A DNA stretch of 43,866 bases, taken from contig PUMQ01000015.1 in NCBI GenBank assembly GCA_003551435.1, positions 1 to 43,866 on the forward strand. Direction: 5' to 3'. How positions within the stretch are numbered: position 1 is the stretch's first letter; every line of letters begins with the position of its first letter. This document shows positions 1,849-38,654 of this stretch, one piece after another. This DNA is from Candidatus Nealsoniibacteriota bacterium (GTDB taxonomy: Bacteria > Patescibacteriota > Minisyncoccia > Minisyncoccales > PWPS01). The notes below the pieces were generated by a model that made no database searches, had not been told where the DNA came from, and saw only the letters and a list, made by a program, of their open reading frames with translations. A program made the translations under genes and the position numbers.

Positions 1849-3642
1849 TTAGAATTTCGCTTTTGATTTTTTCATCTTTTCAATCTCTTCCGGAGAAGAG
1901 GTAATAATCTGATCTTCGGTGTAAGAAGCGGTTATTTTAATAGCTACGTGCTTTTGTCCGGCAAAGAAAATGCCTTCTCCCACTTCTCCTTCAAGGAGGA
2001 TGAACTTCTCTTCCTCTGTCAGGTTAAATACTTGCTGGATCATGTCAATTACCGCCGAGGATTGCTTGAGAAGTATTTTAAGAGCGGAGTTAGTGACAAT
2101 CGGTTTTCCGTAATTTGACTGCATAAAGTCGGAAACGTCTTGGGTAATGGTGGTCACTCCCAGCCAGTATTTTCTCGCCCTTTTAACGAGTCCGAAAAGG
2201 AAAGATGCCCCGTCTTCGTTTTGCATCATCCACCACGCCTCGTCAATAACAAAAAGCCTCTTTTTTGCAGAGGAAGTTATTATCTTCCATATGTAACGCA
2301 TGATAATAAACATGGCTATCGGTCTCATCTCTTCTTCCAAATCCCTTATTCCAAAGACGGTAAGTTTGCTTGTTACGGAAATATTGGTGTGTTTATTAAA
2401 GAAGTTGGAATATGTTCCGCGAGTAAACCTTCTTAATCGCAAGATAAGAGGCCTTGTGCCTTCCATTGATTCTAACACCTGCTCTAAATCGGAAAGCAAA
2501 GGAACTTTCTCTTCCCAGGTATTCGGATCGCTTTCCGGAGTAATGTCTCTTGCGGCATAGGTTTCCGTCACTGCCTGGTCTATAAGGGCGTCTTCTTCCG
2601 GAGAAAGACCGCCGAGCATAATACGCAAAAGGCCGACGAGATTGATGGTATTTGTTCTTAAAACCTCTTCCGCCGTTTCATCTTCTCCGGGAATAGGAAC
2701 ATCAAAAGGGTTAATCTGATGGGTTGAGCCCAGCGATATGCTGTAAAAAGATCCGTCTACGGACTCGCTGAGAGTTTTGTACTCGTTTTCCGGATCAACG
2801 ATAATTACATCCACCCCGGTCATTAGAGACCTTAAAACATCAAGCTTCACAAGGTATGACTTTCCTGCCCCGGATGTTCCAAACACCACCGCGTTTGCGT
2901 TTTCCAGTGTAAACCGATCAAAAAGAACTAGGGACCGATTATGTTTGTTTATCCCGTAGAGAATTCCGTCCGAGGAAGTAAGATCAAAGGAGATAAAGGG
3001 GAAAATGCTTGAAAGAGGCTCTGTGTTTAAAGGAGTGTGGGTTTGCAAGAGGTCCATCCCGTAAGGAGAGGTGCTTGTAAAACCGGATGCCTGCTGAAAG
3101 AGAGCCGGCCTGATGTAGATTACTTTCGCTTCGAAAATGGATCGCAGTATATTTTCTGTTTCTTCCAGCTCTTTTTCCGAATCGCCGTAGACGGTAACAT
3201 AAAGGCCGAAGTAAAACATTCTTTCCTGGGCAGACTGCAGGCGGTCGCGCAACTCCTCCATATCTCTATAGGCGGTTTCCAAAACAGGGTTCCTTACGAG
3301 TCCTTTTTCTTCGTTGTCCATTATTTCTGCCTGGACTTCGGTGAGTCGCTTGCGCAACTTTTTTAAAACATCTTCCGTGTTTGCCGGATGAATGAAAAAA
3401 GAGATATCCAGCTGGACGTTGAGATTGATTACCGGAGAAACCCAGCCGGCGGTAATGTAGTGGGGGTAAGAGAAAACAAAAAAGGAACGGGAAAACTTTT
3501 CCTCAATTTTTATCTGTCCTTGAAGTTCTTGAATAGAAGAAGGGGCGATTACGTCAACCAACTTCAACACTCCCGCTTTTTCTTTTTCGGGAGACTTCTT
3601 CTCCATTCCCGCCAATTTTTTAAAATCTTCCAGTAAACCCAT
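1849..3642 (-). CDS. VirB4/TraC-like type IV secretion ATPase
   Basis: Walker A VVFGTSGAGKSYLVKLD, Walker B-like RLFVIDEAWWMMQ; overall VirB4 layout. Confidence 0.9.
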   Translation of the reverse strand: MGLLEDFKKLAGMEKKSPEKEKAGVLKLVDVIAPSSIQELQGQIKIEEKFSRSFFVFSYPHYITAGWVSPVINLNVQLDISFFIHPANTEDVLKKLRKRLTEVQAEIMDNEEKGLVRNPVLETAYRDMEELRDRLQSAQERMFYFGLYVTVYGDSEKELEETENILRSIFEAKVIYIRPALFQQASGFTSTSPYGMDLLQTHTPLNTEPLSSIFPFISFDLTSSDGILYGINKHNRSLVLFDRFTLENANAVVFGTSGAGKSYLVKLDVLRSLMTGVDVIIVDPENEYKTLSESVDGSFYSISLGSTHQINPFDVPIPGEDETAEEVLRTNTINLVGLLRIMLGGLSPEEDALIDQAVTETYAARDITPESDPNTWEEKVPLLSDLEQVLESMEGTRPLILRLRRFTRGTYSNFFNKHTNISVTSKLTVFGIRDLEEEMRPIAMFIIMRYIWKIITSSAKKRLFVIDEAWWMMQNEDGASFLFGLVKRARKYWLGVTTITQDVSDFMQSNYGKPIVTNSALKILLKQSSAVIDMIQQVFNLTEEEKFILLEGEVGEGIFFAGQKHVAIKITASYTEDQIITSSPEEIEKMKKSKAKF

Positions 3643-3653: not shown

Positions 3654-4277
3654 TTAGGTGGTAAGTTCTTCCGGAAATTCCGGATAGTAACCACTCTCTG
3701 CACTTTTAGGATGGAATAGCGACCAAAAAAGCTCGATAATCTCAATAGTGGTAAGGGGAGCACAGTGCAAACCGCATCTTCGCAGCCCCAAAGCTACAAA
3801 TTCCATTCTTTGGTACAGCTGTCTTTTGCCCCTCTGAAAGGAGTCTTCTGTTATCTCTGTTGTTCCTTTTGATTTTTTGGTATCTCCGACAGCCGTCGGA
3901 CTGTAGGGGACAACCACAAAGAAGCTTTTGGAATAAATTGACTCTTTATTAACGAAATCTTCCAAAAATTCTCTATATCCTGTCGTTTGCTGTTTTAGAA
4001 GGGGATTTGGCTGCTCTTCTTCCATCTTTTTTATTTTTTCGATATAGCCGGTAATGTTTGTTTTTCTTGACTGAACCACTATCTGGCAGGAAAAATCAAG
4101 AGAGTTCAAAAAAGACTGGAACTGGTAAAGAACCGCTTCCTGTTCTTCCTTTGATTTTAAAGCAATGTTAATGGAAGATACCATCAATACCCCTCGCATT
4201 CCCCTGTTTTTTAGGAGAATTATTCCTTCTCTTACCTGTTTTATGGGAATAAAGTCTTGTGCGGTTTTTGCGGCCAT
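3654..4277 (-). CDS. T4SS-associated protein, TraC-like N-terminal domain type
   Basis: 207 aa directly upstream of VirB4; IKQVREGIILLKNRGMRGVLMVSSINIALKSKEEQEAVLYQFQSFLNSLDF. Confidence 0.6.
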   Translation of the reverse strand: MAAKTAQDFIPIKQVREGIILLKNRGMRGVLMVSSINIALKSKEEQEAVLYQFQSFLNSLDFSCQIVVQSRKTNITGYIEKIKKMEEEQPNPLLKQQTTGYREFLEDFVNKESIYSKSFFVVVPYSPTAVGDTKKSKGTTEITEDSFQRGKRQLYQRMEFVALGLRRCGLHCAPLTTIEIIELFWSLFHPKSAESGYYPEFPEELTT

Positions 4278-12568: not shown

Positions 12569-14257
12569 TTATAATCCTAATCGCGCCTTGACAGCATCCC
12601 ACCGGGTGTCAATCGATTTTCCTTGGCTTATTAAGTCTTCACAATGCTCGGCAAAAAGAGCGATATTCTCTTCTACGAGAGAGCTGTCATAAACGCTTTC
12701 TCTGGCCAGATCAAACTCTTCTAGTGCTCTCCGGCAGTGGCGTTGATACATCAAATAAATTCCTTTTTTAAAGTGATAGTAGTAATCTCCCGGGGGGAAG
12801 CGGAAAGAAACATCTTCAAATTCTTTTACCAAATCTATTGGTATGGCGTACAGAGAACCATCTCCGGTTTTCCGAGCGGGGACAGAGCTTGTTATACCGA
12901 TTACTTCTCCCTTTTTGTTTAATACGGGGCTGCCGCTGAACTCTGGTGTTGTTTCCAGATTGGCCTCAATAAGGTTGAATGTTTGGTCGCGGCTCTCTCT
13001 AAGAGCAATTATGTTTCCTGAAAAAAAAGAAGGACTGAAATAATCCAAAGCTACCCTTGTATCCGGAGCGGCGCGATGGGGAACAAACTTTTTATCTGTC
13101 TCTTTGCCCGAAAAGCTGAAAGTGTAAGCGGCGTCTCCCGGTCCCGTTTCTCCGGAATCTCCAAGAGGAACTGCCGGCAGGCGGTCCGGCTGCACCTTTA
13201 CTATAGCAATATCTTTTTGGTCGTAACTAAAGCTCTCATTTGCCGATACTACTTCAAAATCAAAGCTTTCTTCCATTGCCTCGGCCAATTCTGTCTTATC
13301 CGAAGCGGGATTAAAAACCACCGTCTTTTCTTCAACATCAAGAGATACTCCGCGAAAAAGAGTCTCCCTGTTTTCTTTTCTTCTTTCCATGTCTTCCGTG
13401 CTTCCCGATTTTTCTTCAAGGTCTTTCATTACTTCCAGGAAGGCTTTCATTCTTTCTTGGTCTCCGGTCATTTCTAGCTCGAAAAATTTCTCAGCAAGCT
13501 GATATGTTAGCAAGTGGGAAAAAATTTCTTCTCTTAAAGCCGCGGTGGTGGCTGTATGGGCGCTGGTTAGAATAAAGCCGTCCGGGTCTATAACAAAGCC
13601 CGCGCCTTCCCAATAAATACCGTGCAAGGGGATTGTCGCCGGTTCTTCAACAGGGTTTTGTTTGATTTTGAAAGTATCGAAATCTATAGTAAAAGAAGGC
13701 ACAGTGGCTTCCCCGTCCAAAGTATAACCGATTTTTACAACCGCCGGCTCGCTGATTTCAGCGATCTCCGCAGGTTTTAATTCAAATTTTGCCAGCTCTT
13801 CGCTAGATATCTCCGCAACCAAAGGAGCTCTCAAGAAGAAAAAAAGAAAAGTGGCGGCAAAAAAAAGCACCGCAAGGGCAGTTATGGGGAAAACTAGCTT
13901 TTTGCCTTTTTCCGGATTAAAAAGAGATGTTTTGCTTTTTTGTACAGTACTAGAGTCCGAGCCGGTATTTAAAAAAGGAGAAGATTCGGCCTCTGAAGGA
14001 GGAAACGGAGAAGAAGGGTGAGTATCGAAAGACTTTTTTTCAAAAGAAGAGGAGCTTTGTTCCGGAGCGTTCTGTTTTATTATTTCTTCCAGAATATGAG
14101 TAGCGGTAGCGCCCCTCTCTTCGGCTTTCTTGAAGAACATCTCCTTTTCCGGGTTTTGTTTTTTGACCTCTGCCAGAATGGATTCATCGCTCACGTTTTT
14201 CTCTCTCGCTTTTCGGATTGACTCTGTTATTTTTGCCGCTTTATTTTCCGTGGACAT
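12569..14257 (-). CDS. Membrane-anchored HtrA/trypsin-like serine protease with N-terminal KAREK module
   Basis: Start moved to MSTENK; FILTSAHT (His), KDIAIVKV (Asp), TTPEFSGSPVLNKKGEVIGITS (Ser); one TM. Confidence 0.75.
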   Translation of the reverse strand: MSTENKAAKITESIRKAREKNVSDESILAEVKKQNPEKEMFFKKAEERGATATHILEEIIKQNAPEQSSSSFEKKSFDTHPSSPFPPSEAESSPFLNTGSDSSTVQKSKTSLFNPEKGKKLVFPITALAVLFFAATFLFFFLRAPLVAEISSEELAKFELKPAEIAEISEPAVVKIGYTLDGEATVPSFTIDFDTFKIKQNPVEEPATIPLHGIYWEGAGFVIDPDGFILTSAHTATTAALREEIFSHLLTYQLAEKFFELEMTGDQERMKAFLEVMKDLEEKSGSTEDMERRKENRETLFRGVSLDVEEKTVVFNPASDKTELAEAMEESFDFEVVSANESFSYDQKDIAIVKVQPDRLPAVPLGDSGETGPGDAAYTFSFSGKETDKKFVPHRAAPDTRVALDYFSPSFFSGNIIALRESRDQTFNLIEANLETTPEFSGSPVLNKKGEVIGITSSVPARKTGDGSLYAIPIDLVKEFEDVSFRFPPGDYYYHFKKGIYLMYQRHCRRALEEFDLARESVYDSSLVEENIALFAEHCEDLISQGKSIDTRWDAVKARLGL

Positions 14258-14358
14258 TGTGGTAAATCCTACTTTATTAGGTAGATATTTTTTAAATTTA
14301 TCACAAGAAAGAGAGAAAAGCAATTAATTTTTTAAATGGGCAAAAAAGGCTAAAAATA

Positions 14359-14387
14359 TTGACTTTTGGTCTTTTTGCTAGTACTAT
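14359..14387 (+). promoter_or_regulatory. Sigma70-like promoter upstream of LysM-M23 gene
   Basis: TTGACT-17-TACTAT. Confidence 0.65.
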
Positions 14388-14433
14388 TACCGTACGGTCA
14401 TTACAGATTTAGAAACCCTTTTTAGTTCCCTTT

Positions 14434-15519
14434 TTGGCGGACGGAAGGAAAGATATTCATATACCGATAAAAAAAGATTTTCCGGAACGTTGGCGGAAGT
14501 GGAAAAGCGGTAGAGAAAACAAAAAAGAAGGAAGCCTCCTTCTTCTTTTTGTTGCCTTTTGCATTGTGGCCTCGGTCTATTTTACGCTTACAAAGACAGA
14601 TTCGCCAAAAAAGGAAGAAAAAGAAGTAAAGATTGGTTTAAACGGAAGCTTGTTTCTCGCTTGCACGGAAAATACGGTTGTCGGAACAGGGAATATTGTT
14701 TTTGCAAACGGCAACTCACTTCTTGCTGAATCTTCCCCCTATTTTGCGGACGTTCAGGTTTTAGGAGCGCGAGGAATTGAAAGAAGAGAGAACATAATCG
14801 CCTACCGGGTGAAGAAAGGAGACACTCTCTCTTCTATAGCGGATGATTTTAATATCAGCACCGATACCATTAAGTGGGCAAACAGCATTAAGCAAAGAGA
14901 GGTCAGGGAAGGGGACGAGCTTCTTATTCTTCCGGTAACGGGGGTATTGTATTATGTAAGAAGAGGAGACACCCCAGGACAGATCGCCGAGAGGCACAAA
15001 GCGGATCTTAAAGACATCATGTCTTTTAACAACATTAAAAGTGAAACAGAAATCAGGCCCGGAGATCAGATTATTATTCCAAACGGTATAAAGCCGCCCG
15101 AACCTGCTCCTCCCCAGAGAATATCTCCCGGACGTTCTTATGCGGGATTTGTTCCGGTGACTCGCGGTACGGTAACCCAGACGGTTCACGCTCCCGGCCA
15201 TGCCAATGCCGTTGATATAGCCAATGCTTGCGGAACTCCTATTTATGCTACCGCCGCGGGAACGGTTGAAAGGACCGGCTATGACGGAATGGCCGGATAC
15301 TTTATAGTAATAAATCACGGAAGCGTTAGAGCACTCTACGCTCACCTGGGAAGAGGAGGAGTGTATGTTTCTCCGGGACAAAGGGTGTCCGCCGGACAGC
15401 AGATAGGTCTTATGGGGAACACGGGGTATACACTGGGAGCGACCGGGTGTCACCTTCACTTTGAAGCAATCGGAGGAAGGAATCCGTTCTCTCACCTGAG
15501 AAGAGGAGACCCGATGTAA
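14434..15519 (+). CDS. LysM-LysM-M23 peptidoglycan endopeptidase, TM-anchored (TTG start in the ORF track)
   Basis: YRVKKGDTLSSIADDFNISTDTIKWAN (LysM), second LysM, HANAVDIANACGTPIYATAAG and GCHLHFEA (M23). Confidence 0.9.
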   Translation: MADGRKDIHIPIKKDFPERWRKWKSGRENKKEGSLLLLFVAFCIVASVYFTLTKTDSPKKEEKEVKIGLNGSLFLACTENTVVGTGNIVFANGNSLLAESSPYFADVQVLGARGIERRENIIAYRVKKGDTLSSIADDFNISTDTIKWANSIKQREVREGDELLILPVTGVLYYVRRGDTPGQIAERHKADLKDIMSFNNIKSETEIRPGDQIIIPNGIKPPEPAPPQRISPGRSYAGFVPVTRGTVTQTVHAPGHANAVDIANACGTPIYATAAGTVERTGYDGMAGYFIVINHGSVRALYAHLGRGGVYVSPGQRVSAGQQIGLMGNTGYTLGATGCHLHFEAIGGRNPFSHLRRGDPM

Positions 15520-15541
15520 AAGGACAAGGGAAAGGAATAAT

Positions 15542-15571
15542 AAAAACGCAAGGAGTGACTTGCGCTTTTTA
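15542..15571. terminator. Bidirectional terminator between convergent genes
   Basis: AAAAA-CGCAAG-GAGTGA-CTTGCG-CTTTTT. Confidence 0.65.
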
Positions 15572-15588
15572 TTGCCAATAAGAATTTC

Positions 15589-15942
15589 TTATACGCAGTT
15601 TTTGCACTTTTTTGTCTCGGGTGTAATCAGCAGTTTTTTGTGGGATATCTCTTTGCCGCATTTTTCACACTTCCCGTAGGTGCCTTTTTTTATTTTCTCC
15701 AAGGCGTCATTAATGTTCTTGAGCTTTATTTCCAAAGCGTGCTCTACGGGTAAAAGGGTAGAGTATTCTTCTACTTCGTCTGCTTTTTCTTCCATATTAC
15801 TTCCCTCCACTTTGGGAAAAACCGTTTCCCAATCTCCTTCGGGAACGTTGTCTTTTTTGGCAAAACTGCCAAGCGCCTTTTCCAAAGAAGCTTTGTTTTC
15901 TTCCAGTTTCTTTTTTAATTCTTCAATTTGTTTCTTATTCAT
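15589..15942 (-). CDS. TraR/DksA-type zinc finger protein
   Basis: YGKCEKCGKEISHKKLLITPETKKCKNC at the C-terminus after a coiled coil. Confidence 0.8.
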   Translation of the reverse strand: MNKKQIEELKKKLEENKASLEKALGSFAKKDNVPEGDWETVFPKVEGSNMEEKADEVEEYSTLLPVEHALEIKLKNINDALEKIKKGTYGKCEKCGKEISHKKLLITPETKKCKNCV

Positions 15943-15947
15943 TTGTT

Positions 15948-16946
15948 TTATTTTACAAGTTCGTAATATCTGTCTATAAGTGTTTGGATGGCTTGCAGAG
16001 AGGTGGCAAAAATCAAACGGTCGTCGGTTATTGTGTAATAGAGACCGATATTTCTTTCTCCCTCGCGATAACGGATAGAAACGGGCCTTGGCATATCTCC
16101 TTGGTAAGAGGTGCTTAAAAGGTCATCTTCGGTCACCGGAATTTCCACGTCAAAAAAGGAAAAAAGGCTGCGGAACGACTTTTCAATTTCTTTTTCCCAA
16201 GTAAGGCGCATGATGGTTTCTACGTCTTCGCGGTTTTCTCTGTCAAAAGGAACGACAAATCCGAGACGGCTTTCTGCTTCTCCCGTATAAACATAAAGGT
16301 CAAAATCCTTATTTATTTTTTCAAAAAGGCGCTCCGGGTAATCAACTCCAAAAACGCCAAAAAAATCTTCAAGGTCGGTAATCCTGGGTGTTCTTACCTC
16401 CTCTCTTTGGTCTTCCGCAATAATTCTTATAATCTCTCCTTCTCTCTCCTCACGGAGAATTCTTCTAAGATGGAGAAGGTATTCTTCGTCGACCGTAATG
16501 GCAAATCTTTGAATATCATCTATTTCCGGGAAAAGCTTTATTAGAGGATAATTTATATCAGGGATGCGTGTTTCCCGAACAATTACCTGAGGGCTTATCG
16601 GTTCCAGTCTGGGAACAAAAAAAGCGCGGTAAAGGACGGTAAAAGAGAAAGCGGCAATAGCCGACAAGCCGATAGTAACAAAAACCCGCATCCAAATTTT
16701 GGACTCTTCAGTCGGTTTTTCAGGAAGACGATTCTTAAAAGATTCTGGCGGTTCTACATCGGGAACTTCCTTTTTTTTGTCTTGCTTTATGGTTTCGTTA
16801 AGGATATCGGTGGAAGACATTCCTCTTTCTTGCGCTTTTAAAAAAGCGGCCTCCTTGTCGGGGTTTTGTTTTTTTATTGCTTCCAGTATTTCTTCGTCGG
16901 TCAGCCCCTGTTCTCTTGCTTTATTGATGGCATCGGCGATGTTCAT
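15948..16946 (-). CDS. Single-TM protein with N-terminal KAREQ module
   Basis: Start moved to MNIADAINKAREQGLTDEEILEAIKKQNPDKEAAF; TM then extracytoplasmic domain. Confidence 0.7.
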   Translation of the reverse strand: MNIADAINKAREQGLTDEEILEAIKKQNPDKEAAFLKAQERGMSSTDILNETIKQDKKKEVPDVEPPESFKNRLPEKPTEESKIWMRVFVTIGLSAIAAFSFTVLYRAFFVPRLEPISPQVIVRETRIPDINYPLIKLFPEIDDIQRFAITVDEEYLLHLRRILREEREGEIIRIIAEDQREEVRTPRITDLEDFFGVFGVDYPERLFEKINKDFDLYVYTGEAESRLGFVVPFDRENREDVETIMRLTWEKEIEKSFRSLFSFFDVEIPVTEDDLLSTSYQGDMPRPVSIRYREGERNIGLYYTITDDRLIFATSLQAIQTLIDRYYELVK

Positions 16947-16950
16947 GGTT

Positions 16951-17562
16951 TTATAAAAAAGTAAAGAGGAAAAAAGCGGCGGCGGCAAGGACAAGAATTC
17001 CCGCGCCTATTATAATTATTTTTGAAAAATTTGTTTTGACGGGCTCTTCGGTGTTTGTCATTTCTTTACCGCTATTTTCTTCGGCTTTGTCCGGAGAAAA
17101 GCTTTCTGTGGAAAAGAAACCTTCTCCTCCCACGTCTTCTCCTTTCTCTTTTGCCTCTATTCTTTTTAAAAACTGCTGTCTCATTTCTTCTTCTTTTTCT
17201 TGGGTTTCCTTGGTAAGGAGTGTTTTTCCCTCGGAGGATTTTTCACTTTTTCCTTTTAAAAAAGAAGGTTTTTTCTGGGGCGGTTTGCTTTCTTCTTCCG
17301 GGGAAGGGGGCGCTTTCTTAAAAGGAGAAGGTTCTTTTACCGGGGAAGGGGGCTGGCTAGGAGAAGAAGCAGGGGATTGCTTTTCTTTTTGAGGAGTGTT
17401 TTGCTTTATTATCTCGTCTAAAATTTTTGTCGGATCGGCGCCTCTTTCCTGTGCTTTCTTGAAAAAAGTTTCTTTTTCCGGATTTTGTTTTCTTATTTCC
17501 TGTAAAATCTCCGCATCGCTCACGCCTTTTTCTCTTGCTTTTTTTATGGATTCTACAACCAT
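16951..17562 (-). CDS. Tail-anchored protein with N-terminal KAREK module and Pro/Glu-rich linker
   Basis: MVVESIKKAREKGVSDAEILQEIRKQNPEKETFF...; C-terminal TM FSKIIIIGAGILVLAAAAFFLFTFL. Confidence 0.7.
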   Translation of the reverse strand: MVVESIKKAREKGVSDAEILQEIRKQNPEKETFFKKAQERGADPTKILDEIIKQNTPQKEKQSPASSPSQPPSPVKEPSPFKKAPPSPEEESKPPQKKPSFLKGKSEKSSEGKTLLTKETQEKEEEMRQQFLKRIEAKEKGEDVGGEGFFSTESFSPDKAEENSGKEMTNTEEPVKTNFSKIIIIGAGILVLAAAAFFLFTFL

Positions 17563-17582: not shown

Positions 17583-20500
17583 TTAAAACTTAAAATCAAG
17601 ATCGGACAGGTCTTTTTCTTCTTTGTCTTCTTCTTTGTCTTCTTTTTCTTCTTCTCTTGGAGAAGGAGTTTTTTCTTGAGCGGGGGGAGCTGGGCTTTTC
17701 TTTTCTTCTTTTGCGGGTATGGAAAAAGAGATGCCCGAAAGGTCACTGCCGGCCTCTTCTTCCTTTTCTTTTTCCGGCTCGCTTTCGGGAAAAGAAAAAT
17801 CAAGATCGGATAGATCTTTCTTTTCCTCTTTTCTTTCTGTCTCAGGAGAAGGCTTCTCTTCTTCAGGGGAAGGGGGCTTTGAATAAACGTCGTCTTTTTC
17901 TTCTTGCGGAGGTTCTTCTTGCGGAGGCTCTTTTTTCTTTTCCGGCTTTTGCGAAGAAGGAGAGTCTTTTTTAAGAGTAGGGCGGTATGTTTCTCTCGGC
18001 TCTTTTTCTTCTTCCGCCTCTGTTCCCTTCTCAAGAGTAAAGTTTATTTCATCCAGTTCTTTTATGATGTTTTCTTCTCTTTCTACTATAAGGTCTATCT
18101 CTTTTTCCTCTTTTTCAATTTCCCTTAATCTTTCTTCTATTTCCCACCTTTCTTTTTCCAGGAGGCGTCTTTCTCCTTCCGCTTCCCACCGCTTCTTTTC
18201 TATTTCTTTTTTCTCATTGTGGGATTCAACGAGGTCCTCTTCTTCCTCCAGTTTTCTTTCCGCTTCTTTTGCTTCTTTTTCCTTGTTTTTTACCTCTTCC
18301 AGGCTGCTTTGTTCTTTTTCTTTTCTTTTCGCCAACTCCTCTCTCTTGTATTCCAAAGAATCTTTTATTGCCTGCACTCTGTTTAGTTCTTTTTCCTTTT
18401 CCTTTTTAATCTGCCTCAAGCCGATGGTTTTTCTCTTGTCTTTGAGTTGACGGTCTTTTCTGTTTAGCTTTTCTTCTTCGTTTAGCAGTTGTTGGAAGTG
18501 AAGTTCAACACGGCTCATTTTTTTTCTGACCCTGTCCATTTTTTCTTGGACCTCCCACCTCTCCTTTTCTATCTCTCTTCTTTTTTCTTCGGCCTTCCAG
18601 TGTTCTTTCCCTATTTCCCGGCTTTCTTCCGGGGTTTCTGCCGCTTCTTTTTTTCTTTCTATCTCTTTTTCAAACTCTTCAATCTCCTTTTCTTTTGAGA
18701 CAATAAGGTCTAGTTTTTCTTGGATATGCCTTTCTTTCTCCTTTATGCGGGCTCTCTTCAACGACAAATCTTTCTTTTCTTTTTCCAAAAAGTACCTCCT
18801 CAGCCTTATTCTGTCTCGTTCTTCGTCAATTCTTATCTTCTCTTCTTTGCGGGAAAGACTTTCCTCTTTGTTGCGGATATCTTCTTCTCTGCCTGTCAGG
18901 CGGCGGTGCTTCATTTCCAGCTCTCTTCTTTTCGCTTGTGGCTTATTTAGTTTATCTTTTACCGCCCACGCCTCTTTTTCCAACTTCTTTTTTTCTTCTT
19001 CAAGCTCCCATCTTCTTTTTTCTATACTTTCTTTCTCCTCGGGTTCGTAGGATATTTTCTCTCTTGCTTCTATATTTTCTTTTTTCTCTTTTACCTCTTC
19101 TTCTCTTCGTTTTACCGCCTCAAGCTCTTTTTCTATATACTCTTCTTCTCTTTTGTATTTTTTTATTTCAAGCTCAAGGGACTTCTTTTTTTCAAGAATT
19201 TGGAAAAGCCTGTCATCCAGTTTTTCTTTGATGAGATTTATTTTTTCCAGCCGAAGGTGTCTTTTTTTTCTCGCCTCTTCTATCCTTTCTTCTTCCGACT
19301 TAATTTCTTCTTCTTTGAGCTTTTCTTTTTTTTCTTTTTCTCTTTGCTCCGCCTCTCTGATTTCCCCTTCTTTCTTTTTTCTTTCTTCCTCTTTTAGCGT
19401 GCTTTTTTCTTTTTCCGACAGCTCTTTCTCTCTCCTGTCAATCTCTTCTTCTTCTTTTTCCAGCTTTTTTATCTTTTCGTCAATGGCACTCAGCTCCCTT
19501 TCCAGAGGCCATCTTTTTTCTTCTACTTTTCTTCTTTCTTCTTCGGCCTGCCATCCTGCCTCTATCAGTTCTTTCTCTTTGTCCGTGTCTTTGGCAAGCT
19601 CTTTCTCTTTTTCTATCTCCCGACTCTTTTTTTCAGCGTCACTTTCTTTTTTAAGGACAACTTCCAAGTTATCCGACAGCTGTGATTTTTCGGAAAGAAG
19701 CTTTTCCTTCTCCGCAGAAAGAGCTTCTTTTTTCTCAATCAGCGTTTCTTTTAAATCCTCCGCCGGGGGAGCGTCTTCTGTCTTTTTTTCTTGAGGAATC
19801 TCTTCTTCTTTCGGGCTTTCTTCTAGCTCTTCTTCCTCTGTTTCTTCGGTAGATTCTTGAAGATCGTCCACTTCCGCTCGTACTCTTTTTATTTTCTCTT
19901 TCTCTTCATTAATTTTTTTGTCGAGCTTCTCGATAAGTTCTTCTATTTCCCACCGCTTCTGTTCTACTTCCTTCCTCTCATCTCCCGCCTTCCATCTTCT
20001 TTTTTTAATATCTCTCTGCTTTGGATCCTCGCTGGAAAACAGCTCCTCTTCTTCTTCCAGCTCTCTCTCCTCCCTTTCTATGTCTTTTTCTTTGGAAATT
20101 ATTTTTTCCAATTCTTCTTCTTCCTTGAGCTTGCGCGCTTCCAAAAGCTTTTTGTTCTTAAGCGCTATTTCCGCTTCCTCTTTTTTACCCTTAATTTCTT
20201 GCTCACGAAACTCTCTCTCTTTCTCCTCCTTTTCTTCTTTTATTTCTTCCAGTTTTTTTTCAATCTCTTTTTTTCTTTCGGCCAGAGAATTTCTTTCTTT
20301 CTCAGGGGCGTCTGATTTTCCTTTGATCTTTTCCGCTTCTTCTTCCCATTTCCAAAGCTCTTTCTCAATATCCTTTCTTTTATCTTCAATAAGCCATCTT
20401 CTTTGTCCGAGTTCTTTTTGCTTTTCTACGCTTTCTTCTTTGCTTCCCTCCTCTTGCATTCTTTTTTCTTCTTCATCCAGCTTTTTCCTTTTTTCCTGCA

Positions 20501-20663
20501 GAGAATTTATACTTTCCTTTATCTGGTTTTCTTTTTCCGTTACTTTTGCAATCTCAACATCAAACTCCCCGATCTTTTTCTCGATTTCTTCTTTTTCTCT
20601 TTCAAGCCGCTCTATTTCTTCTTCCACGCTTCGGAGAGTTGATTTAAGGTCGGATTCCTCCAT
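17583..20663 (-). CDS. Giant charged coiled-coil protein (1026 aa) with recurrent RRW...RW motif
   Basis: Continuous heptad-rich ORF; six copies of the two-Trp motif; acidic Pro-rich tail with DLSDLDFSF repeats. Confidence 0.85.
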   Translation of the reverse strand: MEESDLKSTLRSVEEEIERLEREKEEIEKKIGEFDVEIAKVTEKENQIKESINSLQEKRKKLDEEEKRMQEEGSKEESVEKQKELGQRRWLIEDKRKDIEKELWKWEEEAEKIKGKSDAPEKERNSLAERKKEIEKKLEEIKEEKEEKEREFREQEIKGKKEEAEIALKNKKLLEARKLKEEEELEKIISKEKDIEREERELEEEEELFSSEDPKQRDIKKRRWKAGDERKEVEQKRWEIEELIEKLDKKINEEKEKIKRVRAEVDDLQESTEETEEEELEESPKEEEIPQEKKTEDAPPAEDLKETLIEKKEALSAEKEKLLSEKSQLSDNLEVVLKKESDAEKKSREIEKEKELAKDTDKEKELIEAGWQAEEERRKVEEKRWPLERELSAIDEKIKKLEKEEEEIDRREKELSEKEKSTLKEEERKKKEGEIREAEQREKEKKEKLKEEEIKSEEERIEEARKKRHLRLEKINLIKEKLDDRLFQILEKKKSLELEIKKYKREEEYIEKELEAVKRREEEVKEKKENIEAREKISYEPEEKESIEKRRWELEEEKKKLEKEAWAVKDKLNKPQAKRRELEMKHRRLTGREEDIRNKEESLSRKEEKIRIDEERDRIRLRRYFLEKEKKDLSLKRARIKEKERHIQEKLDLIVSKEKEIEEFEKEIERKKEAAETPEESREIGKEHWKAEEKRREIEKERWEVQEKMDRVRKKMSRVELHFQQLLNEEEKLNRKDRQLKDKRKTIGLRQIKKEKEKELNRVQAIKDSLEYKREELAKRKEKEQSSLEEVKNKEKEAKEAERKLEEEEDLVESHNEKKEIEKKRWEAEGERRLLEKERWEIEERLREIEKEEKEIDLIVEREENIIKELDEINFTLEKGTEAEEEKEPRETYRPTLKKDSPSSQKPEKKKEPPQEEPPQEEKDDVYSKPPSPEEEKPSPETERKEEKKDLSDLDFSFPESEPEKEKEEEAGSDLSGISFSIPAKEEKKSPAPPAQEKTPSPREEEKEDKEEDKEEKDLSDLDFKF

Positions 20664-20716: not shown

Positions 20717-23700
20717 TTAGAAAGATGTTTTTTGAAGGGGAGACAGTCCGGCTTGGCGCGCCAGGTGTCTTGCTTCCTCCTTTTTCGCTTCTTCAAGCTT
20801 TTTTTGAATCATCATAATTTCTGTTTCCTTGTTTTTCAATTCTTCTTGAACTCTCCATTTTTTCTCCTCAACTCTTCTCCTTTCTTCTTCCGTGTCCCAC
20901 CTCCTTTTCTCGATAACTTTCTTTCTTTCAGGATGGATCTCCTTTTGCTTTTTCAGTTTTTCTATCTCTTCGATAAATATTTCCTCTTCGCTTACAACAA
21001 TATCCAGCTCTTCAATAATCTTCTCTTTCTCTTTTTTTAATCTTTCCAGCGCCCTTTCCATCTTTTTTCGAAGAGGAGGAAGCTCTCTTGCCCGATGGTC
21101 TGCGGAAAGAGTGTTTTTTCTTTCCTCCAAAGATTTTATTTTTTCCCTTTCTTTCCTTTCTTCTTCTTTAAGGCGCTCTATATTTTCTTCAATATTCCAC
21201 TTTTTCTTTTCAAGCAACCTTTTTTCTTCTTCCGTTTGCCATCTTCTCTTTTTTATCTCCATTCTTTTCTTGAAGTTTTTCTGTTTTCCGGCCGCTGTTT
21301 CAAGCTTTATCTTTTTTTCTTCCAGCACTTTTTCATGAGCATCAAGCATTCTTTTTCTCTCTTGGAAAAGATTTATTTTTTTTCTATAACTTCCCGCTTT
21401 TTTACTGCTTGCTTCTATTTGGCTTTTCAGCTCCATTATTTCTTTTTCCAGTCTTAGTTTTGCTTTTTCCGAGGAAAGAAACTCTTTTTCCGCCACCAGC
21501 TTTCTTTTGTTTTCCAAAAACTTTTTTACCTCCTTTTTGAGGTTTTCTTTTTCCAACGAAATTCTTCTTATTTTACCAAGAAGGGGAGAGAGCTGTTTTT
21601 TCCGGTAGAGAATATCTTTTTCCTTTTCCCTTCTCTCTTCTTCAAGCTCCCATCTTCTTTTTTCTGCTGCCGATCTTTCTTCGGGGGTGCTTGCGGAAAG
21701 CTTTTCTTCCTCTGCTGTTACTTCTTGCTCTTTCAACTCTTTTACCTCTTGGTCTGTTTTCTCAAGCTTCTTTCCAATCTCTTTTCTTTTCTGATTGAGT
21801 TTTTTCTCTTCCGCTGTAATCTTTTCCCTCTTTTCTCTCAGCCGGCCGAAATCTTCTTTTATTTTTTGGCTCTTTTCTCTTATGGAAGACTCCATTTCCG
21901 CGCACCTTTCTCTTTTTTCTTCCATAGTAAGAAGCGCCTCTCTGTTTTTAGCTGATTGCAGTTTTTCTAATACGCTTCCCAAGTCCCTCTTGGTGCTTAC
22001 GATTGATTTTTCGACTTCCCATCTTCTTTCTTCAACCCTTCTTCTTTCTTCTTTTATATCCCAGTAGGAAGACGGCAGGTCTCTTTTTTCTTTTGCGGCC
22101 CTCTCCTCAATGCTTTTTTCTCTCTTTTCAATTTCCTCTTCTTTTGCGGAAATTTCCTCCAGTTTCATTCTCAATTCCCGCTCTCTTGCCGTGAGAGCCG
22201 CTCTTTTGTCCAGAAGGGCTTCTTTTTCTTTTCTTGTTTTGTCTATGCTTTCGTCCGTTGCTTCGTATATTTTTTCTGAGATAAACGTTTCCTTTTCTCC
22301 CAGAATCTCGGAGAGCTTTTTTATTTTTCTTTTTAGATCGTTTTCTTTTTTTAGAAAAGAAGAAGCGTAGTCTTTTTTTTCGGAGACGGCTTTTATTCTT
22401 TCTTCCGTTACCCACCTTTTCTTTTCGCAAAGCCTTCTTTTATCTTCAAGATCCCACCTTTTTTTCTTTAAGGCCTCTTCTTTTTCCGGTGAGCCTTCCG
22501 CTTTTTCCCTGGCAAGCAGTTTTTCTATTTTTCCCTTAATGTATTCTTCTTTCTTAAAAATGAGCTCGGCTTTGTTCTGCAGAAACTTTTCTTTCTCGCT
22601 TAGAGCTTTTATTTCCGCAAGAAGAGCCGGCTTTTCTTCAGCAAGAAAGGCGTTCAGCTCTCTTTTTTTCAGCTCTCGCTCTTCTTCCACCCGCTCTCTT
22701 TTTTCTTTCTTTTTTTGCTCTTCTCGCTCTTTCTCTTCTTTCCTTTTTCGCTCTTCTTCTCTTTTTTTCCTTTCCCTTTCTCTTTGTCGCCTTTCTTTCT
22801 CTTCCCTTTTCCTTTTCTTTTCCATCACCAAACGCCTGTGTTCTTCCTTCTTTCTTCTTTCCTCCTCTTCTTTCCTCCTTCTTTCCTCCTCTTCTTTCCT
22901 CCTTCTTTCAAACTCTTTTTTCTGGCGGTTTGTCATCTTCTCTCTTTCTGTTATTTCCGTCTCCTTTTCCCGCAGTTCGCTTTCCATTTTGGAAATTTTA
23001 TCGGAAAAAAGGGTAATTTTTTGCTTGTTTTCTTCAATCAAAGATTGCGTTTCTTCCAATCTTTCTTCCCACTCTCTTTTCTCTTCCTCGGCGTGCTTCC
23101 TTCTTTCTTCTATCTGCCATCTTTCTTTTTCCAATCCCCTTATCTCGAAAGATTCTTTGGCGTGTTTTCTTCTCTCTTCTATGTCTCTTTCTCTTTCTTC
23201 TATTATTGATTTTACCTTGGAAAGCGTTTCCAGTTTCTCGCTTATTCTTTTTACCCGGGCGTTTAGCTGGCCGGCTATTTTAAGGGACAACTCTTTTTCT
23301 TCTTCCAGAATATCAATTTCTTGCCGAATGCCGAGAGCATTAAGTCGCAAGGAGAGTGTTTGCTCTTCTCTTTCGAGTATTTCCAGTTTTTCTTTCTCTC
23401 TCTTTTCTTCTTCTTGAGCAAGAAAGTAATCTTTGGCAAGCCGGCGGTCTTCCTTTTTTTCTTCGGCTATTTTTTTCTCCCAGCCCCATCTTTCCTTTTC
23501 TATTCTCTTCCTTTCTTCTTCTATCTGCCATCTTTTTTCCTCCAAGAGTTTTTGTTTTTCCGGATTTTTTGTCGCTCTCTGTACCTGTTGAATTTTCAGC
23601 TCTTTCTTTTCTACTTCTTCTTCTCTTCTTATCGCACCGGCGCGGTTTTCTTCCAGTCCGGCAATTTTCTTCCGGATGCGATTTCTTTTAACTTCAATAC

Positions 23701-25345
23701 TGTTCTTGTGTTCCCCCGTTTTTCTGAGCGCTTGTTCTACCTCTTTTTTGTGTGCCCGCTTGCTTTCAAGCTCTTTTTTCTTTGTTTCTTTAACTTCCCC
23801 CAGTTCGGACTTAACTTCTTCTTTTCTTTTTTCGGTTTCCTCTTTCCACCTTTCTTCCAGTTTTTCTTCCTCTTTCTTCTTTTCTTCCTCTTCTTCTTTT
23901 CTTTCTCTTCTCTTCTCCTCCTCTTCTTTTTTCTCTTTATCGGCTACTGTTCTTGCTCTTTCTTCGTCTCGAACAGCTTCTCTTTTCCTTCTTATTTCCG
24001 AGAGCTGCCTCTCTATTTCTTCTTGCACGCTTTCAAATGAAGACTCTTTTTGCTTTACTTGTGTTTCTTTTTCTTTTCTTTTCTCCGCCAACTCTTCTTT
24101 TTTTACAGACACTGCCTTTTCTTTTTCTTCTATTTCACCTTCTAATTTTTGGGCACTCTCTCTGAAAGAAGCAATTTCTGTGCGGAAAGACTGGAGCGAT
24201 TTTTTAATGCTTTCTATTTCTCCTTCCGTTTCAGAAATTTTCTTTTGCCTTCTTTCTTTTTCCGCCTTAAGGTAGGCGAGGGTTTTTCCGTCTTTGCTTT
24301 CCCCAAGCTTTTCTTCCTGAGAAGAAATGTTGTCTATCTCCGCTTCCAATCTTGATTTGCGCAAAGAGAGCTCCTCCTTTTTTCTTTCCATAACAGCGAT
24401 CTCTCTTTCTAAGAGTTTTTCTTTGTAGTGAGGATCCAGGAGAGACAATTTGAGGGAAACAATCTCTTCTCTCTCTTTTGCTAAATTCAACTCTTCTCTT
24501 AAAAGAGTTTCTTCTCTTTCTAGCTTGAAAAGAAGCAAGGAAAGGCGCTCTTTCTCTTCTTTTGTTTGCAAAAACTCCTCTTCTTTATTAAAGAAGGCCT
24601 CCATCTCCGCGAAGCTTGCTTCTTTTTCGTTAAGAGATTCTGAATGTTCTTTCTCCATTGAGGCGAGTTTTCCTTCTGCTTGCTCTTTCCCGGTTTCCGC
24701 TTCTTTCTTTTTTTCCAAAAAGTCAATAAGAGACTCTTCAAGCTTTCTTTTTTCGGCCCTCACCGTTTCCAACTCCCCTTGAAGGCTTTTCCTCTCTCCT
24801 TCTTTTCTTTCATCCTCCTCTTTTTTTTCTTTTTCAAGGTCTTCTTCCAGTTTTTTTATTCTCTCTTCTTCCGCTTGCCCCTCTTTTCTTCCGTCTTCTA
24901 TAAGTTTTTTTAAGCCTTCTTCAAGTATTACTTCTTTGTCCGGAGCCTCGTCGGGAACATCTTCTATTGGTTTTTCCCGGACATCGTCGGGCGGCTCGGC
25001 AAAAGGTTCTTTGAAAGACTTTTCTTTTTCAGCTGCCCTCTCTCTGGCTTCTTCTATTTCCTTACGAGCACGCTCTTTTGCCTTTTCTCTGATTTCTTCC
25101 ACAACCTTCCTATCTTCTACTGTTTCTTTCTGCTTTCTTATGGCGGCAGCTACTTCTTCTTTTTGGTGTTTTTGTGCTCCAAGGGAAACACCGTGACCTG
25201 TTGGCTCACCTAATGGAATACTTTTTAGTTTTTGGAGCAAGGGCTCTGCCGTGAGTTTGCGTTTCGGTTTCGGCTCGCCCCTTTGGATGCGGGCAAGATC
25301 TCCCCTCATTGTCCGTATCCCTCCTTGTTGTTGTTTTTCGGACAT
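20717..25345 (-). CDS. Giant charged coiled-coil protein (1542 aa) with recurrent RRW...RW motif and an ER/K single-alpha-helix segment
   Basis: Continuous ORF; seven copies of the two-Trp motif; RRRKEEEERRRKEEEERRKKEE segment. Confidence 0.85.
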   Translation of the reverse strand: MSEKQQQGGIRTMRGDLARIQRGEPKPKRKLTAEPLLQKLKSIPLGEPTGHGVSLGAQKHQKEEVAAAIRKQKETVEDRKVVEEIREKAKERARKEIEEARERAAEKEKSFKEPFAEPPDDVREKPIEDVPDEAPDKEVILEEGLKKLIEDGRKEGQAEEERIKKLEEDLEKEKKEEDERKEGERKSLQGELETVRAEKRKLEESLIDFLEKKKEAETGKEQAEGKLASMEKEHSESLNEKEASFAEMEAFFNKEEEFLQTKEEKERLSLLLFKLEREETLLREELNLAKEREEIVSLKLSLLDPHYKEKLLEREIAVMERKKEELSLRKSRLEAEIDNISSQEEKLGESKDGKTLAYLKAEKERRQKKISETEGEIESIKKSLQSFRTEIASFRESAQKLEGEIEEKEKAVSVKKEELAEKRKEKETQVKQKESSFESVQEEIERQLSEIRRKREAVRDEERARTVADKEKKEEEEKRRERKEEEEEKKKEEEKLEERWKEETEKRKEEVKSELGEVKETKKKELESKRAHKKEVEQALRKTGEHKNSIEVKRNRIRKKIAGLEENRAGAIRREEEVEKKELKIQQVQRATKNPEKQKLLEEKRWQIEEERKRIEKERWGWEKKIAEEKKEDRRLAKDYFLAQEEEKREKEKLEILEREEQTLSLRLNALGIRQEIDILEEEKELSLKIAGQLNARVKRISEKLETLSKVKSIIEERERDIEERRKHAKESFEIRGLEKERWQIEERRKHAEEEKREWEERLEETQSLIEENKQKITLFSDKISKMESELREKETEITEREKMTNRQKKEFERRRKEEEERRRKEEEERRKKEEHRRLVMEKKRKREEKERRQRERERKKREEERKRKEEKEREEQKKKEKRERVEEERELKKRELNAFLAEEKPALLAEIKALSEKEKFLQNKAELIFKKEEYIKGKIEKLLAREKAEGSPEKEEALKKKRWDLEDKRRLCEKKRWVTEERIKAVSEKKDYASSFLKKENDLKRKIKKLSEILGEKETFISEKIYEATDESIDKTRKEKEALLDKRAALTARERELRMKLEEISAKEEEIEKREKSIEERAAKEKRDLPSSYWDIKEERRRVEERRWEVEKSIVSTKRDLGSVLEKLQSAKNREALLTMEEKRERCAEMESSIREKSQKIKEDFGRLREKREKITAEEKKLNQKRKEIGKKLEKTDQEVKELKEQEVTAEEEKLSASTPEERSAAEKRRWELEEERREKEKDILYRKKQLSPLLGKIRRISLEKENLKKEVKKFLENKRKLVAEKEFLSSEKAKLRLEKEIMELKSQIEASSKKAGSYRKKINLFQERKRMLDAHEKVLEEKKIKLETAAGKQKNFKKRMEIKKRRWQTEEEKRLLEKKKWNIEENIERLKEEERKEREKIKSLEERKNTLSADHRARELPPLRKKMERALERLKKEKEKIIEELDIVVSEEEIFIEEIEKLKKQKEIHPERKKVIEKRRWDTEEERRRVEEKKWRVQEELKNKETEIMMIQKKLEEAKKEEARHLARQAGLSPLQKTSF
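22861..22908. repeat. Perfect 2 x 24-bp tandem repeat inside the 1542-aa gene
   Basis: cctcctcttctttcctccttcttt twice in tandem; encodes an 8-residue RRRKEEEE period. Confidence 0.85.
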
Positions 25346-25477: not shown

Positions 25478-27601
25478 CTACTTGTTTTCGGTTTTCTCTT
25501 TTGCTCTTCTTATCGACAAACTTATCTTTCCGCTGTCCTCAACCTTAATTACTTTTACGGGCACTATCTCTCCGGGCTTTAGCTCGTCTTCCACGCTTTT
25601 TACTCTTCTGTCGGCAATTTCCGAAATATGGACCAGTCCTTCCTGCCCGGGAACGATTTCCACTACCGCTCCGAAGCCGAAAAGCTTTACCACCTTTCCT
25701 TGGAAAATTTCTCCTTCTTTTATCTCCCGAGTGATATTTTTAATCCAGCTGACCGCTTTTTCGATTGACTCGTCGTTTTCCGAAGTGATGGAGATAAGCC
25801 CTGAGTCGTCAATATCGATAGCCACGTTTGTCCCGTCTATTATTTCGTTTATTGTTTTCCCCCGGGGACCTATTACATCGCCTATTTTCTCCGGATCAAT
25901 CTTCAAAGTGACGATGCGCGGAGCAAACGGAGAGAGGCTCTCTCTTGGTTTTTCAATAACTTTTTTCATCTCTCCGAGTAGGTAGAGGCGGGTTTTTCTT
26001 GCTCTTTCCAAAGAGTCTTCAATCATTTTTTTGGTAAGTCCGTCTATTTTTACGTCCATTTGGATGACGGTGATTCCTTTTTCCGTTCCGGCCACTTTAA
26101 AATCCATATCTCCGTAATGGTCTTCCGTTCCTTGAATGTCGGTAAGGAGTTTGTATTTCCCGCTTTCTTTGTCGGTTACAAGACCGATGGAAATTCCCGC
26201 TACCGGTCTTTTGATGGGAATGCCGGCGTCCATGAAGGCGAGAGAGGCACTGCACACCGAGGCCATGGAAGTGGACCCGTTTGAAGAGACTATTTCAGAG
26301 ACACTGCGAATGGTGTAAGGGAAATCATCCGGGTCGGGAAGAAGGGGAAGAAGGCTGTTTTCTCCCAGCATACCGTGGCCTATCTCCCTTCTCCCGGGGC
26401 TTCTTATCGGTCTTACTTCCCCTACAGAGTAAGGGGGAAAGTTGTAGTGGTGCATGAACCGTTTTTTGTCGGAAACCTCCATTTCTTCCATTAGTTGCTG
26501 TTCTCCGGGCGCACCCAAAGTAATTACGGAAAGAGCTTTTGTTTGTCCGCGGGAAAAGAGAGCCGAGCCGTGAGTTCGGGGGAGAAGACCTACTGAACAA
26601 TTTATTTCTCTAACTTCATCTATTTTTCTCCCGTCTATCCGATCTTCTTTTTCCAAAATATTTCTCCTTATTTCTTCTTCTATTATCTTCTCTAGACAAG
26701 CGAAAGCGAAAGAAACTTTCTTTTCTTCCTCGTACTTTTCCTTTATGAAATCGGAAACTTTCTTTTTTAGCTCTTTTAACTTTTTTTCCCGGTTGTCTTT
26801 TAGAGAGAAGATGTTTTTCATCTCTTCTCTTGCTTCTTTTTCAACGGCTTTTTTTACTTCCCCATCTTCAAAAGGGTCGGGGAGCTTTACTTTTTCTTTT
26901 CCCTCCGCTTTTCTTATCTTTTCTTGAAATGCGCAAATTTCTTTTATCGGATTTTCGGCGAGCCCGATCGCCTTTGCTACCGCCTTTTCACTTTCTTCTT
27001 TGAAAGAACCCTCTATCATATTGACGGTAAACTCGTTTTCTTTAAAAAAACCGCTTACCACCATCTCCATTTTTCCGTTTTCTTTTTTTTGCTCGTAACT
27101 TGGATTGATTACGCAACCCCCTTCTTCTAGAAGGCCGATTTGAACCGCTCCGAGAGGGCCTTCCCAGGGGATGTCCGAAAGGTGGAGAGCAAGAGAGGAG
27201 GCTATCAATCCGGCTACCGAAGGATCGTTTTTTTCGTCCCATGAAAGACAGGTTACGATAACCTGGACCTCGTTTTTTAAGTCTTTTGTAAAGCGGGGGC
27301 GGATAGCCCGGTCTATCATTCGAGAGACGAGCGTTGCTCTATCGGACGGCCTTCCTTCCCTTCTGGTATAGCGCGGACCGCTTATCTTTCCTGCGGCGTA
27401 AAACTTTTCTTCGTAGTTTACGGAAAGAGGAAAAAAATCCTTACTTGACTCTTCTTCGGACATGGTAGCTACGGCAAAAACAACCGTATCTCCGCAGCGA
27501 ACCAATGCTTCTCCGTTGACCCTTTCGGCCAAACCGCTCAAAGTAACGGTCATCTCTTTTCCTTCAATATTTAAACTAAACTTTTTCGTTTTATTATTCA
27601 T
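25478..27601 (-). CDS. pnp: Polyribonucleotide nucleotidyltransferase
   Basis: Two RNase PH domains, KH (GDVIGPRGKTINEII) and S1 (GEIFQGKVVKLFGFGAVVEIVPGQEGLVHISE). Confidence 0.96.
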   Translation of the reverse strand: MNNKTKKFSLNIEGKEMTVTLSGLAERVNGEALVRCGDTVVFAVATMSEEESSKDFFPLSVNYEEKFYAAGKISGPRYTRREGRPSDRATLVSRMIDRAIRPRFTKDLKNEVQVIVTCLSWDEKNDPSVAGLIASSLALHLSDIPWEGPLGAVQIGLLEEGGCVINPSYEQKKENGKMEMVVSGFFKENEFTVNMIEGSFKEESEKAVAKAIGLAENPIKEICAFQEKIRKAEGKEKVKLPDPFEDGEVKKAVEKEAREEMKNIFSLKDNREKKLKELKKKVSDFIKEKYEEEKKVSFAFACLEKIIEEEIRRNILEKEDRIDGRKIDEVREINCSVGLLPRTHGSALFSRGQTKALSVITLGAPGEQQLMEEMEVSDKKRFMHHYNFPPYSVGEVRPIRSPGRREIGHGMLGENSLLPLLPDPDDFPYTIRSVSEIVSSNGSTSMASVCSASLAFMDAGIPIKRPVAGISIGLVTDKESGKYKLLTDIQGTEDHYGDMDFKVAGTEKGITVIQMDVKIDGLTKKMIEDSLERARKTRLYLLGEMKKVIEKPRESLSPFAPRIVTLKIDPEKIGDVIGPRGKTINEIIDGTNVAIDIDDSGLISITSENDESIEKAVSWIKNITREIKEGEIFQGKVVKLFGFGAVVEIVPGQEGLVHISEIADRRVKSVEDELKPGEIVPVKVIKVEDSGKISLSIRRAKEKTENK

Positions 27602-33720: not shown

Positions 33721-34311
33721 ATGAACCTCATACCAACAGTAGTCGAAAAAACGCAATACGGGGAGAGGGCGTACGATATATACTCCCGGTTGCTCAAGGA
33801 AAGAATTATTTTCTTGGGGACTCCCGTCAACGATGCCGTAGCAAATGCAATTATTGCCCAGATGCTCTTTTTGGCCAGCCAGAGCGCTCAGAAGGACATC
33901 AGGATTTATATAAACAGCCCGGGAGGATCGGTTACCGCCGGAATGGCTATTTACGATACCATGCAATATGTAAAGTGTGATGTTTCCACTGTGTGTGTGG
34001 GAATGGCCGGCTCTATGGCGGCAGTTCTTCTTGCCTCGGGAACTTCCGGAAAAAGATTTGCCCTTCCCAATTCGGAAATACTCCTTCATCAGGTAATGGG
34101 AGGAGCTCAAGGAGAAGCGTCACAAATAGAGATTACCGCTCGGCAGATACTCAAAATTAAAGAGAGGCTAAACAAAATTATTGCCTCTCATACCAAGCAA
34201 CCTTTGAAGAAAATTCAGAAAGACACCGACAGAGATTTTTATCTTTCCGCGGATGATGCGAAGAAATACGGAATTATTGACGAGGTTATCAAGGAAAAAA
34301 AGAAAATTTAA
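33721..34311 (+). CDS. clpP: ATP-dependent Clp protease proteolytic subunit
   Basis: [43 protein letters not shown]. Confidence 0.95.
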
Positions 34312-37489: not shown

Positions 37490-38089
37490 ATGTACTACAA
37501 TGTGACAAAAGAAGCGATAGATGAAATGCTAAACAGCCCGGGAGAAGTCCGCGGAAAAGTGATTAGAGCGGACGAATCTTTTATTCTTGAAAAAGGGGGA
37601 GAAGAAAAGTTAGAACAAGTGCAAAAGGAACTCGAAGACATGAGTTCCCCTTTTTCCTATAGAGAGGTTAAAAATGAAAAGTTTTATCCGTGCGGGAAAA
37701 AAGTCTTATCTCTTCTTGCAATAAGCAGGGTTTTTAACATGGATAAAAGAAAAGTAAAAGAGATGGGGGAGTTTTCTTTTGTAAGACCGCCCCTCTTTTA
37801 CCTTTTTGTAAAACTCTTCGGTGTAAAAAGCGTTTTAAAAAAGATACTAAAAAAGTGGAGGCGGAATTACACCATCGGAAGACTGGAGATTGAGGGAATA
37901 AACGAAAGAAAAAGGGAAGTGATTTTCAGGTTGTATAACTTCAATCTCCATCCTGTTTTTTGCGACTATATGTGCGGATATCTGGAGGGGGTTGGTAAAG
38001 CAATGGGGAAAAATGAAGCCAGTTGCCGGGAAACGGAGTGTTACTTTAAAGGAGAAAGCTTTTTCCATCAATTTGTACTAAAATGGTAA
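37490..38089 (+). CDS. Hypothetical protein, possible V4R/ligand-binding-like input domain
   Basis: C-terminal GYLEGVGKAMGKNEASCRETECYFKGESFFHQF; translationally overlapped with PAS gene. Confidence 0.4.
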   Translation: MYYNVTKEAIDEMLNSPGEVRGKVIRADESFILEKGGEEKLEQVQKELEDMSSPFSYREVKNEKFYPCGKKVLSLLAISRVFNMDKRKVKEMGEFSFVRPPLFYLFVKLFGVKSVLKKILKKWRRNYTIGRLEIEGINERKREVIFRLYNFNLHPVFCDYMCGYLEGVGKAMGKNEASCRETECYFKGESFFHQFVLKW

Positions 38090-38652: not shown

Positions 38653-38654
38653 TT

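Follow-up and report, generated by a model that had tools for sequence, protein, structure and literature searches.

The closest described counterparts of the system reported here are the SLiM-bHD docking pairs of PKS/NRPS (PMC9113145), in which genes are collinear, the upstream protein ends in a short C-terminal motif, and the downstream protein begins with a small N-terminal domain; such pairs are used at splits, and a single protein with the motif can serve several partners that carry the domain (PMC9113145). A second counterpart is the cellulosome, in which a scaffold with repeated sites collects enzymes that bear a small, internally duplicated helical module (cohesin-dockerin). The module-peptide pair described below shares with PKS/NRPS docking its gene order, the placement of motif and domain, and its use at splits. 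It differs in that no megasynthase is involved (the carriers are TM-ECD, PilM, HtrA-like, deacetylase and TSP1 proteins), in that the motif is also repeated inside the tail of its coiled-coil protein, and in that the module is internally duplicated and predicted to be all-helical, unlike the beta-hairpin of SLiM-bHD. The PKS/NRPS docking families in Pfam show no sequence match to the module. Like cohesin-dockerin, the system combines a scaffold of repeated sites with a small duplicated helical module on enzymes, but the module is N-terminal and, by inference, cytoplasmic, and its putative partner is a peptide rather than a folded domain; no dockerin match was found in Pfam for 23 module members, and their sequences contain no Ca-binding DxDxD loops. 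By analogy, we propose that the pair works like PKS/NRPS docking domains without being a member of them; binding is inferred, and its only support in this respect is indirect, from pLDDT values.

The window analyzed, a stretch of 43,866 nucleotides, is contig 15 of a 599-kb genome that is 100% complete (Candidatus Nealsoniibacteriota bacterium, PUMQ01000015.1). A first-pass annotation had proposed that three adjacent membrane proteins share an N-terminal module. All three copies were confirmed, and a whole-genome search found no others:

17398..17559, minus strand: N-terminal module of the 203-aa protein (gene 16951-17562), with a Pro-rich linker behind it and a TM at the C-terminus
16779..16940, minus strand: N-terminal module of the 332-aa protein (gene 15948-16946, ATG at 16946)
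14069..14230, minus strand: N-terminal module of the HtrA-like protease (gene 12569-14254), with a TM and then a Trypsin_2 domain beyond it
15951..16700, minus strand: TM of the 332-aa protein with its extracytoplasmic domain (ECD), a region that shares homology with the final part of the one-piece coil-TM-ECD proteins of sister families

The three genes do not form an unbroken row: the HtrA gene is separated from the other two by a DksA-type gene and by an M23/LysM gene on the opposite strand. Pairwise identity among the three modules is 57-72% over 53-54 residues. The internal duplication claimed at the outset also held: the module is 54 residues long and consists of a two-unit repeat with an offset of 28, against the earlier estimate of about 27. 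Self-alignment gives a sole peak at that offset (score 1.36), with offsets 20-27 and 29-36 all negative, and the duplication is significant by permutation (P < 2e-4).

Profile searches show that the module is present in 13 of the 16 genomes of the window's family (f1), and in all four of its genera; one relative is PWKU01000013.1, Candidatus Nealsonbacteria. No convincing match was found outside f1 among some 800 genomes sampled across the order, class and phylum, so that, as far as profile search of sampled genomes can tell, the module is confined to one Patescibacteria family near Ca. Nealsonbacteria. Matches in G048 and G051, and weak ones within f1 (G009 and a second one in G003), proved to be pieces of enzymes, among them MurC-like and SecD-like ones, and all were rejected as chance. 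A partial match in G101 (3.7e-5) was neither accepted nor rejected. The 23 copies align over 54 columns with zero gaps, on unrelated carriers, and conserve basic residues at K7, R9, K24, K29 and R39. Searches of Pfam and NCBIfam with these 23 members, and of the PDB with their profile, returned chance-level matches only, those in the PDB being short stretches in designed or unrelated proteins, and a Foldseek search of the predicted fold against the PDB gave nothing significant. The first-pass annotation had held that a match to a known domain, or the absence of other occurrences, would refute its proposal; neither was found, since the module has no domain match and occurs many times, joined to other domains. 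It is a new family without a database match, probably used in a known way in a new setting.

The module is always N-terminal and on separate genes, with the single exception of a fused protein in G015. Its carriers are the TM and ECD protein, the tail-anchored 203-aa protein and its relatives, the HtrA-like protease, PilM in type IV pilus operons of genus g2, and, in G002, a polysaccharide deacetylase and a TSP1 (thrombospondin-repeat) protein. Because PilM is cytoplasmic and the other carriers place their TM after the module, the simplest reading is that the module itself is cytoplasmic, although this is inferred. Copy number varies: genus g1 has several modules per genome, and in seven genomes with good coverage there is just one copy or one type of carrier. 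In a tree of the modules, the PilM copies form one group (support 0.80) and those of the 203-aa proteins fall with two from HtrA proteins, but the module is too short for the tree to order its spread.

The 561-aa HtrA-like protein has a trypsin-like domain with the serine-protease signature (PF13365, E 1.8e-17; NF041521, E 4.5e-15), including TSAH, DIAIV and SGSP stretches; it scores far below the curated NCBIfam cut-off, and no Pfam match to a PDZ domain was found. The PilM carrier of L045 matches PF11104 (E 1.7e-31) and adjoins T2SSE and T2SSF genes, and that of L049 is followed by a prepilin gene. The ECD family (profile A3) was found in 61 of the 119 genomes of the order.

Some further features of the carriers were seen in passing. 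In G002 the module is present on HtrA, on an adjoining polysaccharide deacetylase and on a TSP1-repeat protein, all on one contig and far from the ECD locus (L046:15964-19052 and L047:17031-19043). G004 has three tandem module genes after the coil (L038:369-2159; ORFs of 111, 180 and 346 aa), which suggests that the module gene was duplicated recently. At the C-terminus of PilM and ECD proteins there is often a TM with an apparent bacterial SH3-type segment (GWxxIE..GWIH) behind it, as in the PilM ORFs of L166, L172 and L173 and in L123:5078-10030; such a PilM seems to be membrane-anchored with a part outside.

The first-pass annotation had also suggested that the module is a shared cytoplasmic docking tag, with neighboring coiled-coil proteins as possible partners. 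Both suggestions are supported, and the evidence points to one such protein, CC1026, whose gene lies just outside the interval originally singled out (12569-17562), which thus left out the most informative partner:

17583..20663, minus strand: CC1026, a giant coiled-coil protein of 1026 aa with an acidic disordered tail, the proposed partner of the module
17586..17609, minus strand: LSDLDFKF, the C-terminal peptide of CC1026, the last copy of the proposed docking motif
17718..17741, minus strand: LSGISFSI, a degenerate internal motif copy in the CC1026 tail
17790..17813, minus strand: LSDLDFSF, an internal motif copy in the CC1026 tail

The CC1026 gene is upstream of the 203-aa and 332-aa genes, and in genera g1, g3 and g4 every f1 genome whose contig extends far enough has a coil gene upstream of the module gene. 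The disordered tail cannot be aligned between genomes, save for its last eight residues. Across ten coils from ten genomes these residues are 78% identical on average, against 11-24% for the preceding blocks, and the consensus of the motif is [ND]LSDLDF[KSG]F. The conservation of this peptide is thus shown directly; that it is what the module binds is inferred. It ends the module-adjacent coil in two different operons: in genus g2 the gene directly upstream of module-PilM encodes another coil, with the C-termini NLDDLDFKL (L045) and NLSDLDFKF (L049). A DNA-level pattern of the peptide and its stop codon picks out the coils that adjoin module genes, and its remaining matches look like chance; no coil lacking an adjacent module gene carries the peptide among 196 genomes of the order. 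The other C-terminal DLDF patterns in the order belong to short non-coil ORFs or to a protein ending KKMDLDFKL, which is not a coil.

The number of motifs roughly follows the number of modules. Coil tails of genus g1 carry extra internal copies, and the motif:module numbers are 3:3 in G000, G004 and G006, 2:2 in G007, 1:1 in five genomes and 3:2 in G001. By our choice, these counts omit an internal ELDEINFxLE or similar match at the coil end of four g1 genomes, because it is located before the disordered tail; G002, with three modules, could not be counted, as its contigs end before the coil. Cis-fused coils have few regex matches to the motif, which lie within their TM or ECD parts, one of them (QVSFSL) just before the TM. 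As a separate observation, a KRRWxxEEERRxxEKxRWxxE signature recurs about every 100-250 residues in the coils, is common to the ECD and PilM types, and is present in both coils of the window (20717-25345 and 17583-20663).

What the pair might be for is suggested by comparison with sister families, using a conserved genomic slot and a second coil gene of the window:

25478..27601, minus strand: PNPase gene, the left-hand marker of the slot
20717..25345, minus strand: CC1542, a coiled-coil protein of 1542 aa, the proposed first piece of a split scaffold
15589..15942, minus strand: DksA/TraR-type zinc-finger gene, the right-hand marker of the slot

In sister families, coil, TM and ECD are usually encoded by one ORF between PNPase and DksA, without a module. 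This one-piece protein opens with an RTMxxDhA signature at its N-terminus and continues with a charged region or with a long coil that contains KxRWxxEExRRxxExxRW repeats, after which come a linker, a TM and the ECD; in some sister families a short charged N-terminal region takes the place of the giant coil. In g1, g3 and g4, this slot is occupied by separate coil genes, the last of which encodes the C-terminal peptide; the module-TM-ECD gene comes next, except that in g1 the 203-aa gene lies between these two. CC1026 is collinear with residues 20-822 of a fused 1651-aa protein of G008, a relative within f1 (31% identity over 868 columns, E 2e-21). The N-terminal signature of CC1542, IRTMRGDLARIQ, is also found at the N-terminus of one-piece proteins, and its coil similarity to them is weaker than that of CC1026, and patchy.

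The PilM locus shows the same alternation of architectures. Coil and PilM are fused in one ORF, without a module, in G000, G003, G006, G007, G012 and G014, and split into a coil with the motif and a module-PilM protein in G008 and G011. In genus g2 the ECD protein stays fused (G008, G014, G015), and G014, where both loci are fused, has no module anywhere. Among f1 loci with both ends visible, the module is present in 10 of 10 split loci and in 1 of 10 fused loci (P 1.2e-4), a value that is merely indicative because there are only two independent split events. The architecture, synteny and distribution are observed directly. The one fused locus with a module is that of G015, in which coil, module and PilM all lie within one ORF. 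In that protein (L050:1-2673) a Met stands just before the module, as if refusion had swallowed a former start codon, and the sequence SLEDEDFDM after the module resembles the motif.

We used AlphaFold2 to model a natural chain from G007, consisting of the coil tail, the stops read as Gly, and the 203-aa homolog (23 rows, alignment A6). The module is predicted as four helices and no strands with pLDDT > 90. With the module in the chain, the two ten-residue blocks of the peptide region reach a pLDDT of 80 and 71, compared with 53-54 for the linker; in the same chain without the module, the peptide blocks fall to 57 and 55. The two runs differ in total rows (23 vs 4), but the peptide columns share the same four rows. 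A rise in peptide confidence that is seen only when the module is present supports docking without proving it, since the coordinates were not seen.

Taken together, we consider it likely that the module serves as a docking domain at the N-terminus of its carriers, binds a linear motif at the C-terminus of the coil, and in this way restores a split scaffold and brings further membrane proteins to it, although no binding has been measured. In this view, an ancestral single polypeptide (coiled coil, linker, TM, ECD) was split within its linker in f1, and the cytoplasmic four-helix module would recognize the short linear motif at the extreme C-terminus of the coil, repeated in the disordered tail in g1. 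The pair would join the pieces non-covalently, replacing the lost covalent joint, and the same replacement would have taken place separately where coil and PilM meet in type IV pilus operons. The basic positions K7, R9, K24, K29 and R39 would be chemically complementary to the acidic-aromatic peptide DLDFxF. Extra motif copies would allow one coil to collect several different module-bearing membrane proteins: the tail-anchored 203-aa protein and the HtrA-like protease, and in a relative the deacetylase and the TSP1 surface protein. Physical binding, its stoichiometry and any benefit of recruiting a protease remain inferences. The original idea of a tag on effectors proved too narrow, because the core clients are the scaffold membrane protein and PilM, and the protease carrier is present in only 3 of the 16 f1 genomes. 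Against docking stand the G015 protein, with coil, module and PilM in one ORF, the three motifs for two modules in G001, the coil of G002 that lies beyond its contig ends, and the slot of sister family f3, which is split without the module. A titration of the module with the synthetic peptide EEKDLSDLDFKF is the next step.

The alternative that survives best, which we still regard as unlikely, is self-association: the module would make its carriers cluster with one another at the membrane, and the coil peptide would have some other role. Two-unit helical repeats often dimerize, and g1 genomes have several module copies each. However, seven well-covered genomes have only a single copy or a single carrier type, and self-association leaves the peptide, the split/fused pattern and the motif counts unexplained. 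Slightly less plausible still is a localization or sorting tag read by another factor, such as a secretion or pilus ATPase, with the adjacency of the coil merely reflecting shared pilus or secretion operons. The window locus does adjoin T4SS-type genes and PilM does lie in a pilus operon, but a tag does not predict the complete absence of the module from fused orthologs in the same operons, and the conserved coil peptide is again left unexplained. C-terminal hydrophobic peptides are common degrons, and the window encodes ClpP (33721-34311), but that the peptide is a degradation or quality-control signal rather than the ligand of the module is very unlikely, given that internal motif copies exist and follow module number and that, among 196 genomes of the order, the peptide is found solely on coils adjoining module genes.

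The hypothesis that every split needs this module is ruled out by sister family f3, which divides this slot among three genes and lacks the module there, so that a split does not require it (L200:3489-8134; L201:2-2278; L208:866-4608). The f3 upstream pieces end in a conserved NSSSPDxDLxKxKENxxFFxFIL, seen on both pieces in G017 and G795 and on the one visible in G808, and the downstream pieces begin MS(L/F)Y(K/S/E)xY. Homology between this C-terminal segment and the module was rejected, as hhalign detected no relation (probability 0.5%). It is possible, from three genomes only, that the f3 segments form an independent docking pair of opposite polarity. A bolder reading, towards which we lean by a narrow margin, is that Patescibacteria have repeatedly cut giant, membrane-anchored coiled-coil scaffolds in pilus and secretion loci and rejoined them by lineage-specific docking pairs. 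Two unrelated pairs would then be in hand, the module with LSDLDFKF and the f3 C-terminal FFxFIL segment with an N-terminal MSxYKxYL peptide, and the f1 tail would be a multivalent hub that collects surface enzymes.

The surroundings of the locus fit a described machine. The window cluster encodes VirB4/TraG (PF19044), PrgI (PF12666), T4SS VirB2-like pilins (PF18895) and an M23/LysM cell-wall hydrolase; Patescibacteria T4SS with these components have been described (PMC12102498), and the position of the coil-ECD locus beside the T4SS genes is in line with that work. The words 'coiled' and 'HtrA' are absent from the main text of that paper, and we found no module, coil split or peptide there; our literature search found no paper joining Nealsonbacteria and coiled coils, or PilM, coiled coils and Parcubacteria. 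The VirB4 of the window itself seems to be split on the minus strand into a 207-aa N-terminal domain (3654-4277; NF045975, TrsD-like) and a 597-aa ATPase part (1849-3642). Elsewhere in the window (38083-41431, plus strand), a PAS protein, a PAS-histidine kinase and two receiver-domain genes stand in a row, a sizeable two-component set for a 600-kb genome.

If the docking interpretation is correct, these bacteria, most of which cannot be cultured, would possess a docking-domain system outside the megasynthases of natural-product synthesis, and a protein module without a database match would have a named partner. The parts are short, cheap and testable: a 54-aa domain and an 8-aa peptide. The pair would tie the Patescibacteria type IV pilus, through PilM, and the membrane proteins of a secretion locus to giant cytoplasmic coiled coils, and membrane proteins, a protease among them, may join such a machine by gaining a small domain.
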